Below, one piece after another: positions 9,364-12,087 of a DNA stretch of 64,000 nucleotides. Within the stretch, counting starts at the first letter, position 1. Every line of letters starts with the position of its first letter. This stretch comes from Cupriavidus sp. P-10 (GTDB lineage Bacteria; Pseudomonadota; Gammaproteobacteria; Burkholderiales; Burkholderiaceae). The position numbers were made by a program, and so were the translations under genes. The stretch spans positions 1,240,001 through 1,304,000 of the forward strand of contig NZ_AP025170.1 in the NCBI RefSeq assembly GCF_003402535.2, read 5' to 3'. The notes below the pieces were generated by a model. It was not told the origin of the DNA. It made no database searches and saw only the letters and a list, made by a program, of their open reading frames with translations.

Positions 9364-9588
9364 TTACCCTTTGATATCGGGCGGGTCATTACCGAAGCTG
9401 TTGCGCAGGCGGATCTGACCGTCGCGGCCGTGAATCAGCAGTTCGACGCGCAGTTGCTTCGCTTTCTCCGTGCCCGCAGCGATGGCGTCTTCCTGCGACG
9501 CAAACAGTTGGCGCCCGCCGGCACCGCCTTCGGATTCGATTGCCCAGCCGTGTTCGACGGGAACGACATGGATGTTGTTGCCTGGCAT
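9364..9588 (-). CDS. DUF2188-like small protein
   Basis: The 74-residue product (MPGNNIHVVPVEHGWAIESE, then DAIAAGTEKAKQLRVELLIHGRDGQI) resembles the DUF2188 family: a short beta-rich unit ending in a HGRDGxI motif, of unknown function. A frame open back to 10818 exists, but its upstream part overlaps other genes, so the ATG at 9588 is the start. It is the last of three minus-strand genes behind LexA box 1, 101 bp after the preceding stop. Confidence 0.75.
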   Translation of the reverse strand: MPGNNIHVVPVEHGWAIESEGGAGGRQLFASQEDAIAAGTEKAKQLRVELLIHGRDGQIRLRNSFGNDPPDIKG

Positions 9589-9689
9589 GGCGATCTCCGG
9601 TTGTGTCGATGCAGCCAGTCTCGGCGCGCTCGCGGGGCGCCGGTATCCGTCTTCGTCCGACAGCCATGTGCCGCGCGCAAGACTCCCGG

Positions 9690-9983
9690 TTACGGGGCTG
9701 GCTCGGGCTCGGCGCGGTAGGCGGACCAGTAGTAGTGCGTGTACCGCCCATGGCGCGCCTGCTTCTTTTCGAGGAACAGCCGTACGGTGCCGGCGTGCCC
9801 GGCCTCGAGCAGCACTTCGCGGTGGCCAGGGCCGTCGCGAGTGGCCGGTCCGAGCGTGCCCAGCGCGGCGGCAATGTAGTGGCCGGGGATGCGGCCCAGG
9901 ATGCCGTTGGCCCCGGAAACCGGATAGCTGTCGGGCGCCGCCGCCGGCATGTGGCAACGGGAAGCGAGCTTGTTGTTGCCCAT
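9690..9983 (-). CDS. hypothetical protein in SOS-box operon
   Basis: A 97-residue soluble protein with no recognised family. A central VLLEAGHAGTVRLFLEKKQARHGRYTHYYW stretch (written here as two adjoining parts: VLLEAGHAGTVRLFLEKK and QARHGRYTHYYW) is rich in aromatic and basic residues. Its ATG is 3 nt after the stop of the upstream zinc-ribbon gene (TGACCGATG), so the two are almost certainly co-transcribed and translationally coupled. Its job may depend on that partner. Confidence 0.6.
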   Translation of the reverse strand: MGNNKLASRCHMPAAAPDSYPVSGANGILGRIPGHYIAAALGTLGPATRDGPGHREVLLEAGHAGTVRLFLEKKQARHGRYTHYYWSAYRAEPEPAP

Positions 9984-9986
9984 CGG

Positions 9987-10235
9987 TCAGGGCCTGCCAG
10001 GACTGATGCTGATGACATCCCGGGTCACGTCCAGGAGCGGCAGGTGACCATAGGCGCGCAGCCGGCGGATATCCTCGCGGGCCGAGGCCGGCATGCCGGG
10101 GCGGCACGATAACGCCCTGGAGCTGATCTGGAAGGTTCCGCAGCTGGGGCAGGTGTAGCGGTAGCCGCGTGGCGCGGCGCGCAGGCGCTCGGCGGCGGCG
10201 CCGCAAACGGGGCAGATGGCGGGTTCGGGTGACAT
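9987..10235 (-). CDS. small zinc-ribbon protein behind a LexA box
   Basis: An 82-residue protein with two CPxCG knuckles (CPVCG near residue 8, CPSCGTFQIS near 29). This four-cysteine zinc ribbon resembles those in many uncharacterised nucleic-acid-associated proteins. The remaining helix (about 50-66) is basic. It begins 19 bp from a near-consensus LexA operator that overlaps the putative -10, so DNA-damage induction is likely. No good Shine-Dalgarno is seen, so the leader may be very short. The function is unknown. Confidence 0.65.
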   Translation of the reverse strand: MSPEPAICPVCGAAAERLRAAPRGYRYTCPSCGTFQISSRALSCRPGMPASAREDIRRLRAYGHLPLLDVTRDVISISPGRP

Positions 10236-10253
10236 TGGCGCACAGGAAGAATA

Positions 10254-10269
10254 CTGTATGGATATACAG
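10254..10269 (-). promoter_or_regulatory. LexA (SOS) box 1 overlapping a minus-strand promoter
   Basis: CTGT-N8-ACAG, and with flanks TACTGTATGGATATACAGTA, differs from the classical LexA consensus only at the centre. On the minus strand a -10 TATACT (10268-10273) and a -35 CCGACA (10290-10295, 16-bp spacer) overlap or abut it, the usual repressor geometry. It controls the 9364-10235 genes. The same sequence recurs at 11281. Confidence 0.85.
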
Positions 10270-10389
10270 TATAGCGCTGCTGCGCGGACTGTCGGCGGAA
10301 AATGCGGTGGGATACCCGGGTTCTTTGGTGATGGGGGCGCGGCGTGGCGGCGTAGACTGGCGCAGCAGTCCTGACCGGCCCGCCCGCAC

Positions 10390-10413
10390 CCCGCCGTGGC
10401 GGGCTGTTTTTTT
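10390..10413 (+). terminator. orphan plus-strand terminator
   Basis: CCCGCC/GGCGGG stem (10390-10395 with 10398-10403) followed by seven T from 10407. Both neighbouring genes are on the minus strand, so this terminator serves no annotated transcript. It could end a short plus-strand RNA starting near LexA box 1. Confidence 0.55.
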
Positions 10414-10421
10414 GCCAGGGG

Positions 10422-10928
10422 CTAACGCGAGAGCCGGCGAAACAGGGAGTGATGGCCGCTTGCCAGGCCGGCAAGCGCGGCGGGATCCGCTAGTTCGAAC
10501 TCGCTGAACTGGAAGGCCGGTGCCACGGTGCAGCCGACCAGCGCAAAGTCGACGTTGTCCCCCAGGTCCACGCGTTCCGCGGCAAACCATCGGCCGGCTG
10601 GAACTATCGCCTGGAAGGTTGCGCCGGCGTGGCGCAACGGGTCGCCGAGACGTTGCGTGACAATGCCGCCGTCGACAATGCTGTGCACGTCTACCGGCGA
10701 GCCGCGGTGGAAGTGCCACAACTCGTCGGAACGGATGCGGTGCCAGGCGGAATAGTCGTTGCCACAAAGCATGTAGTAGATCGCCGTGCTGGCTTCGCGC
10801 ATACGCTGGTCGGCACACACGACCCGTTCTGCGCTGCGGTAGGTCTCGCGATAGAAGCCGCCTTCGGGGTGCGGCTTCAGGTCAAGGGTGCGGATCAGTT
10901 CGCTGGCGGCAAGGCTGCGGTCTGGCAT
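10422..10928 (-). CDS. cupin-family protein (DUF985/Cupin_5)
   Basis: A 168-residue single-domain beta-barrel of the YML079w-like Cupin_5 family. Signatures are LKPHPEGGFYRETYRS near the N-terminus, STAIYYML, WHRIRSDELWHFHRGSPV (divided here: WHRIRSDELW, HFHRGSPV) with the conserved histidines, and a C-terminal GCTVAPAFQFSEFELAD. Biochemical role is unknown; a small-molecule or sugar ligand is plausible for the fold. It starts 39 bp after the 86-residue gene upstream and is probably co-transcribed from LexA box 2. Confidence 0.85.
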   Translation of the reverse strand: MPDRSLAASELIRTLDLKPHPEGGFYRETYRSAERVVCADQRMREASTAIYYMLCGNDYSAWHRIRSDELWHFHRGSPVDVHSIVDGGIVTQRLGDPLRHAGATFQAIVPAGRWFAAERVDLGDNVDFALVGCTVAPAFQFSEFELADPAALAGLASGHHSLFRRLSR

Positions 10929-10967
10929 GTTGGCGTCGGCAGGGCATGGTGTTGGCGGAAGCCTAGC

Positions 10968-11228
10968 TTAAAGCAGGGCGAAGCGGGCCTGCGCGGGGCC
11001 GACCAGCACCGGGCGGCTGACCGGGTAGCGGTGGTGCGTGCCGTGCGTCTCGAATGAGAGGAAATCGGGTGTCCAGCGCAGCGACCGGAGCAGATCCGGC
11101 TCGATGCCGTGGACGATGATGGCGCCCGCGTCAACGCTGACGCTGCCGCAGGGCAGGCGCAGGGATTCAGCATCGTCGCCGAAGTAGAAGGCCTCAAGCA
11201 GGATGGAATCGGACTGGTACAGGGGCAT
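10968..11228 (-). CDS. hypothetical protein behind LexA box 2
   Basis: An 86-residue protein (MPLYQSDSILLEAFYFGDDA to LVGPAQARFALL) with no recognised family. The composition suggests a small beta-rich domain. It is the first gene downstream of the second LexA box, 52 bp away, and precedes the cupin gene by 39 bp in the same direction. No clear Shine-Dalgarno is seen before the ATG at 11228, so the start is uncertain. Confidence 0.55.
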   Translation of the reverse strand: MPLYQSDSILLEAFYFGDDAESLRLPCGSVSVDAGAIIVHGIEPDLLRSLRWTPDFLSFETHGTHHRYPVSRPVLVGPAQARFALL

Positions 11229-11280
11229 ATGGCAAGGACCATGCGGCAGCGCGGCCAGCGGCAGGACGCCTGTCGGATTA

Positions 11281-11296
11281 CTGTATGGATATACAG
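11281..11296 (-). promoter_or_regulatory. LexA (SOS) box 2 overlapping a minus-strand promoter
   Basis: Same CTGTATGGATATACAG core as box 1, with the identity extending to 23 bp (11279-11301). A minus-strand -10 TATACT (11295-11300) and -35 GTGACC (11318-11323, 17-bp spacer) fit a LexA-repressed promoter for the 86-residue gene and the cupin. Confidence 0.85.
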
Positions 11297-11376
11297 TATA
11301 GTCGCCGCCAGTGGTTCGGTCACGCCCGGATTCTTATTTCAGGGGGCTGGTGCGCCGCAGTGGCCTTCTTCCGGAT

Positions 11377-11460: not shown

Positions 11461-11853
11461 ATGCCGATGGAGTGTGGAAGCAGGGCTTGCTGGTTTGGCC
11501 TGGGCGTGGCGCTTGGCGCGGCGCTGGGCGGCGCTTGCGTGGCGCTGGTGCGGGCAAGTCCGGCGCGAGGCGGGTCGAACCCCCGGGCGGATGCACCGGT
11601 GGTGCCATCCGATGCCAGCGCCGACCGGGCGCTGACCGATGACGCGACCGACGTGGTCGAGTATCGCGGCTTTGTGGTCCACGTGTTTTGCCACGCGCTG
11701 GGGCCGGGACGTTTCAAGGCGTTGTGCGATATTTGGGAGTCTGGCGCAGTCGTGCTGGAAGGCGGTGCGCCGCCGACCACGCATGCCACGCCGGAGGATG
11801 CCCGCGCCGCGGCGATATCATGGGCGCGGCAGTGGGTGCAACGAAATGGCTGA
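11461..11853 (+). CDS. hypothetical membrane-anchored protein
   Basis: A 130-residue product. An N-terminal hydrophobic helix (about residues 11-32, GLGVALGAALGGACVALV) would anchor or export it. A low-complexity linker (about 33-62) follows, then a compact C-terminal domain (YRGFVVHVFCHALG to AAISWARQWVQRNG). No family is recognised. An alternative ATG at 11467 has AGGGG in better spacing. The next small gene starts 45 bp later. Confidence 0.6.
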   Translation: MPMECGSRACWFGLGVALGAALGGACVALVRASPARGGSNPRADAPVVPSDASADRALTDDATDVVEYRGFVVHVFCHALGPGRFKALCDIWESGAVVLEGGAPPTTHATPEDARAAAISWARQWVQRNG

Positions 11854-11898: not shown

Positions 11899-12087
11899 AT
11901 GTTTGTTTGTGGGAACCAGGCTTGCGGCGCGCGCTGGGAGCCGGACGAGGTGCAGATCCGCAACGAAGGGCAGGGGCCGGTGTTCCGCTGCCCGCAGTGC
12001 GGCGCCCGCAATCATGTCCAGGCCCGTACCGCGCGCGATGGCACCACGGTCTACCGGCAGGTAGCTGCGAAGCCGGCAGCGCGATAG
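11899..12087 (+). CDS. small zinc-ribbon protein
   Basis: A 62-residue protein with a four-cysteine zinc ribbon: C4 and C9 in FVCGNQACGARW, then CPQC near residue 31. A basic tail follows. AGGAGA sits correctly before the ATG. The fold suggests nucleic-acid or protein binding; nothing more specific can be said. It lies between two other small plus-strand genes. Confidence 0.65.
   Translation: MFVCGNQACGARWEPDEVQIRNEGQGPVFRCPQCGARNHVQARTARDGTTVYRQVAAKPAAR

Follow-up and report, generated by a model that had tools for sequence, protein, structure and literature searches.

Do two identical 23-bp sequences in the genome of Cupriavidus sp. P-10 serve as operators of the SOS repressor LexA, and what might the small genes behind them contribute to the cell? 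The question arises from a locus in a stretch of 64,000 nucleotides (contig NZ_AP025170.1 of assembly GCF_003402535.2, positions 1,240,001–1,304,000; "the window", whose coordinates are used throughout unless another locus is named). Five small minus-strand genes at 9364–11301 had been proposed there to form a LexA-controlled cluster (the original prediction). One group consists of a gene for an 86-residue protein (P86) and a Cupin_5 gene; the other comprises genes for an 82-residue putative zinc ribbon (ZN82), a 97-residue protein (P97) and a DUF2188 protein. We conclude that these are probably two LexA-controlled units of damage-response genes. LexA (SOS) control of both, as judged from the sequence, is very likely. 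Bacterial groups differ in their SOS regulons, and the portion specific to a group includes genes of unknown function; here, such a portion would consist of small families with LexA boxes kept at almost every orthologue and with an SRAP protein and a DNA ligase for company, and among the matches seen two of these families hardly occur outside the genus. Two species of the genus, C. necator and C. metallidurans, are readily worked with in the laboratory.

LexA-type boxes in the window and ahead of orthologous genes

The 23-bp sequence TACTGTATGGATATACAGTATAG is present twice, at 10252–10274 and 11279–11301, exactly where the original prediction had placed it; the copies are identical, each contains CTGT-N8-ACAG, and the match between them stretches to 25 of 26 bp. 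The box of the P86 unit (11279–11301, minus strand) has its core, CTGTATATCCATACAG, at 11281–11296, and that of the ZN82 unit (10252–10274, minus strand) has its core at 10254–10269. On the minus strand a −10-like TATACT and a −35-like hexamer overlap each box (two such sites in a promoter scan, against a shuffle mean of 0.6), in agreement with the earlier proposal that the boxes cover the −10 of plausible minus-strand promoters. The 20-bp palindrome TACTGT-N8-ACAGTA inside the 23-bp copies was found twice in the window and not at all in 100 shuffles of it.

Genome-wide, this palindrome occurs at only five places in 9.08 Mb, both window boxes included, and the reversed pattern at one. The other three places are ahead of recA, ahead of a gene for a 97-residue protein (C2:951700) and at C4:105132, some 650 bp ahead of an imuB-like gene with a dnaE2-like gene behind it. 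The looser pattern CTGTNTNNANANACAG was found at 13 places, and its reversed counterpart at none; the 13 include uvrD, recA, lexA and a DEAD_2/Helicase_C_2 helicase gene, and one more (L006) that has no Pfam match and that we read as imuA from its sequence and from how large the next two genes are. The 16-mer of the window boxes itself also precedes uvrD (named by Pfam) and another unit (L001, L010). The host LexA is encoded at L005:1615–2268 and carries the LexA-type DNA-binding domain PF01726 and the S24 domain PF00717.

Box conservation, which the original prediction had put forward as a check, was assessed in 60 Cupriavidus genomes, 48 of which contain P86 and 40 ZN82. An exact CTGT-N8-ACAG within 150 bp upstream of the start was present for 38 of the 39 P86 orthologues (60% identity or more), the sole exception having one mismatch, and for 49 of 71 P86 copies of any identity. 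For ZN82 the figure was 47 of 54 copies or pieces, with a median distance of 18–19 bp. These copies were counted once per distinct protein and upstream sequence; the 54 include broken pieces (L124, L128) and the truncated L015, and the boxed count is 47 or 48 because one box lies at the 150-bp limit in a broken copy. The boxes are thus conserved ahead of the orthologues, as compared with 7 of 387 other genes of the same loci. Of these seven, lexA, an SRAP gene, a DUF2471-type gene and a P86 copy are of SOS type or belong to the modules; the other three stand on the far side of the P86 box, facing P86.

A matrix built solely from the own-genome boxes near uvrD, recA, lexA, imuA and the helicase gene, with no P86 or ZN82 box in the training set, placed 52 of 71 P86 and 47 of 54 ZN82 upstream regions above the 98th percentile of the controls. 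Some of the box-less copies come second or third after a lead gene that has the box (L050, L062, L066, L089, L090), and others have one-mismatch boxes (L076, L083) or a poorer box (L093). True exceptions are the divergent P86 paralogues L106, L108, L109, L112 and L113, the ZN82 copies L119 and L129–L132, and the P86 genes of two genomes from a second genus, which have no LexA box.

Two of the observations qualify the case for LexA control. The CTGT-N8-ACAG core alone is weak evidence, since 0.51 occurrences are expected where two were observed and 6 of 100 shuffles reached two or more; and the best single control was outscored by none of the P86 and only two of the ZN82 upstream regions, the controls including lexA. 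If the palindromes were operators of another repressor, or AT-rich promoter palindromes that arose by chance and have no relation to SOS, a background of about 0.5 cores per such window would fit. We consider this very improbable, as the boxes belong to the same sequence class as those of recA, lexA and uvrD in the same genome and their position is kept across the genus. Chance palindromes in particular were rejected on the five perfect 20-bp places genome-wide and the boxes kept ahead of orthologues. Computation found CTGT-N8-ACAG at the promoter, its retention ahead of orthologues and a host LexA with a LexA-type DNA-binding domain, the features that characterize a LexA regulon; LexA binding, induction by DNA damage and cotranscription of the units are inferred.

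The units resemble the canonical LexA regulon of beta- and gamma-proteobacteria in the operator, in its position over the −10 and in the own-genome lexA, recA, uvrD and imuB-dnaE2-type genes; they differ in that the part of PMC3323433 that was available names none of the window genes as an SOS gene. The imuA2B2C2 operon of a C. taiwanensis plasmid also carries CTGT-N8-ACAG and, according to the accessible part of PMC4151985, was LexA-dependent by quantitative reverse-transcription PCR in R. solanacearum into which the plasmid had been brought. It shares genus and operator type with the window, but consists of known error-prone polymerase genes, whereas the window encodes small proteins of unknown function. 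The earlier statement that none of the five is a known SOS gene agrees with the literature searched, which was seen mostly as titles and abstract openings: the window genes were not found named as SOS genes there, nor were induction data for them. A search with general terms and a few locus tags, again mostly of titles and abstract openings, found no published work on P86, ZN82, P97 or the further family G13 (see below).

Composition of the two units

All five minus-strand open reading frames are under purifying selection (dN/dS 0.08–0.44 in 24 pairwise comparisons with the window gene). P86 (10968–11228, minus strand, 86 residues, dN/dS 0.10–0.27) is the lead gene of its unit and starts 52 bp after the box core. 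The protein has no Pfam family at E 1, so that the Pfam PilZ sequence family is not matched either. AlphaFold2 predicts a small beta barrel with a mean pLDDT of 93.6; Foldseek gave no match at E 0.001 for this model, VIA structure matches were middling and mixed (PilZ, split barrels, Hcp, phage tail parts), and a profile search for solved relatives yielded none below E 0.3. Cupin_5 (DUF985; 10422–10928, minus strand) follows 39 bp after P86 and is probably cotranscribed with it; its match to PF06172 has an E of 1e-46 and 158.9 bits against a cut-off of 25.

In the ZN82 unit the lead gene (9987–10235, minus strand, 82 residues, dN/dS 0.15–0.44) starts 18 bp after the box core. P97 (9690–9983, minus strand, 97 residues, dN/dS 0.08–0.32) follows after 3 bp and has no Pfam match at E 1. 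Foldseek found nothing at E 0.001 for its model, and the VIA structure matches were again middling and mixed (NCoA1, CdiA-CT, HigB2). A profile similarity of P97 to designed armadillo repeats (best E 2.5e-5) covers only 31–32 positions and was set aside as chance. DUF2188 (9364–9588, minus strand, dN/dS 0.08–0.10) lies 101 bp after P97 and would be the last gene of the unit if it is cotranscribed; it matches PF09954 with an E of 5e-19 and 68.6 bits against a cut-off of 22. The gene identities first proposed therefore stand for DUF2188 and Cupin_5, which Pfam confirms. The zinc-ribbon call for ZN82 is based on two CxxC pairs, whose cysteines (C8, C11, C29 and C32) are invariant in 19 aligned sequences, and on profile matches that all fall below curated cut-offs; the remaining two proteins are without Pfam match at E 1, as given above.

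The LexA sites could be real while only the lead genes matter, Cupin_5, DUF2188 and P97 being separately transcribed neighbours with no joint function. We regard this as unlikely. Cupin_5 adjoins P86 in 25 of the 39 orthologous loci and DUF2188 was seen in 15; in the remaining 14 and 24 loci, respectively, they were not seen, with the proviso that some of the loci as fetched may end too early to show them. On these counts both genes look optional, and the 101-bp gap before DUF2188 would fit separate transcription. P97 behaves differently: apart from the 3-bp gap in the window, it lies within 3 kb for 31 of 51 ZN82 places, and it has a box of its own in genomes from two other families of the order. 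P97 is thus a partner of ZN82, and Cupin_5 and DUF2188 belong to the units by position only.

The original prediction treated the five genes as one cluster. The two boxes and the minus-strand genes were confirmed, but a single module was not. Each of the 39 P86 orthologues has one or more members of a fixed set of four families next to it, and the two LexA units adjoin in only seven of the 39 loci, one of which has a truncated ZN82 (tblastn). Elsewhere ZN82 sits apart with a box of its own, for instance about 167 kb away in genome G015, so that two units that already had boxes seem to have come together here or to have separated elsewhere. The further proposal that one promoter was copied from the other was rejected: the flanks outside the 16-bp box agree at 25 of 80 and at 28 of 80 positions, which is near chance, and the box centres of the two units differ in relatives. 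The 16-mer of the window is the commonest centre of ZN82 boxes (24 of 45 among those listed) and was found in only 5 of 49 P86 boxes; among relatives with the arrangement of the window, the P86 box is more variable than the ZN82 box. Since the same 16-mer precedes uvrD and is frequent at ZN82, and since the flanks are unlike beyond the repeat, the identity of the two boxes is, on sequence comparison, best explained by both matching a common box of the genus.

Upstream of P86, and divergent from it, lies a plus-strand gene at 11461–11853 with a weak match to the NCBIfam model CV_2116_dom (E 0.025, below the cut-off). The core of the P86 box is 164 bp upstream of this gene, and the operator could thus be common to both. 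A 62-residue protein with four cysteines and zinc-ribbon matches below curated cut-offs is encoded at 11899–12087 on the plus strand; its family (F6) recurs beside the P86 site.

Families that share LexA boxes and their possible function

A fourth family linked to LexA boxes, G13, was found under another box on the C5 replicon of the same genome (L155). Gene maps show P86, ZN82, P97 and G13 in many combinations behind LexA boxes, and the clusters further include SRAP, a short ATP-dependent DNA ligase (PF01068), DUF2188 and DUF2471. Examples are box-P86-P97-DUF2188-ligase (L092), two boxes-ZN82-G13-SRAP-DUF2188 (L065) and box-P86-P86-F20-SRAP-ligase (L089). In genome G038 a box-P86-P86-F20-SRAP cluster is located directly downstream of lexA (L090:791–3882).

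SRAP and the ligase are strongly enriched near P86, ZN82 and P97. Within 3 kb of one of these genes were 9 of 129 SRAP places and 9 of 15 short-ligase places, where about 0.26% would be expected at random for 60 genomes of 7 Mb. The ligase places are 14 among those listed with an open frame below 340 residues, plus one (G041:C1:886850) that was added by hand; the latter had already been seen next to P86, and without this bias the count is 8 of 14. The rows for these counts were typed by hand and comprise 71 of 71 for P86, 51 of 52 for ZN82 (one fragment dropped), 58 of 70 for P97 (12 low-scoring fragments dropped) and 129 of 133 for SRAP. The four SRAP rows left out were under the cut-off, and one of them (G025:C39) is within 3 kb of P97. 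Genes were called with a custom codon-score script and not with a standard caller. The majority of SRAP copies are located elsewhere. SRAP and the ligase are both present in some relatives, the ligase for instance in L092, L098 and L100, and neither is among the five genes of the window units.

In the mechanism that we propose, P86-Cupin_5 and ZN82-P97-DUF2188 would each be repressed by LexA bound to a near-consensus operator over the −10. Upon DNA damage RecA would prompt the self-cleavage of LexA, the operators would be freed, and the small proteins would be made alongside recA, uvrD and the mutagenic polymerases. P86, ZN82, P97 and G13 would then represent a set of small families that Cupriavidus has kept and reshuffled behind LexA boxes, and their products may assist damage tolerance or repair by binding DNA or other proteins. 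This last step is suggested by the company of the ligase and of SRAP, a protein that caps abasic sites. A tolerance or repair role for the small proteins, guessed in this way from gene company, is close to an even call, with the balance slightly on the negative side. More tentative still is the proposal that a largely genus-specific, damage-induced set (P86, ZN82, P97 and G13) works with SRAP and the short ligase in an undescribed pathway for abasic sites or breaks, in which case P86 would count among the core SOS genes of Cupriavidus and have no counterpart in known regulons.

SOS neighbourhoods centred on SRAP, with an ATP-dependent ligase, Ku and Zn-ribbon-like proteins, are described in PMC3765255, of which part was available, and by that description the fuller Cupriavidus clusters likewise join SRAP, an ATP-dependent ligase and a small zinc-binding protein. 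As such neighbourhoods are already on record, the Cupriavidus set would be a new variant of that theme; the window units differ from them in having no SRAP or ligase of their own.

Under the same LexA control, the units might instead be directed against mobile elements (anti-phage or anti-plasmid), SOS being the alarm for invading DNA. DUF2188 matches the PADLOC candidate PDC-S16 (E 2e-23) as well as the phage family phrog_3220, P86 follows a PFIN or PFIN-like gene in two genomes of the second genus, and the paralogues are multicopy and reshuffled, with one P86 copy on a plasmid beside a HipA-domain gene. P86, ZN82, P97 and Cupin_5, however, have no PADLOC match at E 0.01; all 39 P86 orthologues keep at least one of the four constant families beside them, unlike a mobile defence island; and SRAP and DNA ligase, which accompany the small genes, are proteins of the repair type. 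We therefore hold a role in such conflict to be unlikely. Even less probable, in our estimate, is that the small proteins are SOS-induced growth inhibitors, toxin-like or stopping division in the manner of E. coli TisB or SulA. A role in damage tolerance or repair remains the preferred reading.

Besides the window, a LexA box on the C3 replicon separates a DUF2188 gene from a G13-like gene, behind which lies a fragmented SRAP gene (L154:4757–6083), and on C5 the G13 gene is near a ligase fragment (L155). The genome seems to hold remains of fuller modules.

Distribution of the families and other boxed genes in the genome

Among 5.8 billion proteins, P86 (49 clusters) and ZN82 (30 clusters) were nearly confined to Cupriavidus among the named matches, the exceptions being one ZN82 match named Pseudomonadales and two P86 matches from compost metagenomes. 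P97 is more widespread: it formed 144 clusters, and matches among the 120 listed were also named Dyella, Achromobacter and others. P86 was present in 36 of 299 genomes of the family, in 2 of 25 genera. In the second genus (L152 in G157 and L153 in G141) it follows a gene of the plasmid fertility-inhibition type, which is PFIN by Pfam in L152 and by resemblance in L153.

In 399 genomes drawn from the order, P97 was found in seven, four of them outside Cupriavidus. A box precedes P97 in G520, whose match continues through a stop codon, and in G472, which has an SRAP gene in divergent orientation; no box was found in G634, and G691 has weak matches only. G13 occurs on plasmids of Burkholderia (L170 and L171) and of Massilia (L168, in which the gene may be broken), each time downstream of a box from which a further reading frame separates it. 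The boxes in C. gilardii (L173) and C. metallidurans (L172) are within about 25 bp of the aligned start. An Achromobacter G13 (L169) is preceded by an SRAP gene and has a one-mismatch box upstream, read by eye. A phage origin was rejected for P97 (L096 copy) and G13 (L065 copy), which matched none of 50,697 phage records at E 0.01, and so was a plasmid origin, as among 72,556 plasmid records P86 (L096 copy) matched 1, P97 (L096 copy) 5 and G13 (L013 copy) 13.

The available part of PMC3323433 predicts LexA control for two hypothetical genes, hypA and hypB, of beta-Proteobacteria that have several chromosomes, Cupriavidus and Ralstonia included. P86 is likewise a predicted LexA-controlled gene of unknown function, and since the comparison is by description and not by sequence, P86 could be one of the two. 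The 97-residue protein gene on C2 is likelier to be hypA than P86 is, as far as that description goes. This gene (L175:2877–3170, about 951,376–951,669 of C2) stands behind two tandem LexA-type boxes and was found in 60 of 150 family genomes, in nine genera (61 places listed); a box lies near the match in 29 of the 30 loci inspected for it.

Other boxed genes were seen on C3. Two near-identical genes for 142-residue proteins (L157:5187–5615 and L158:5594–6022) each start 83–84 bp after a LexA-type box; the pair sits in a 748-bp duplication of 92.5% identity that includes the box, and the L157 copy has no Pfam match at E 0.01. On the same replicon (1.6 Mb), a sigma-70 factor with all RpoD-type regions is encoded at L160:2748–4646; a LexA-type box precedes its called start by about 325 bp.

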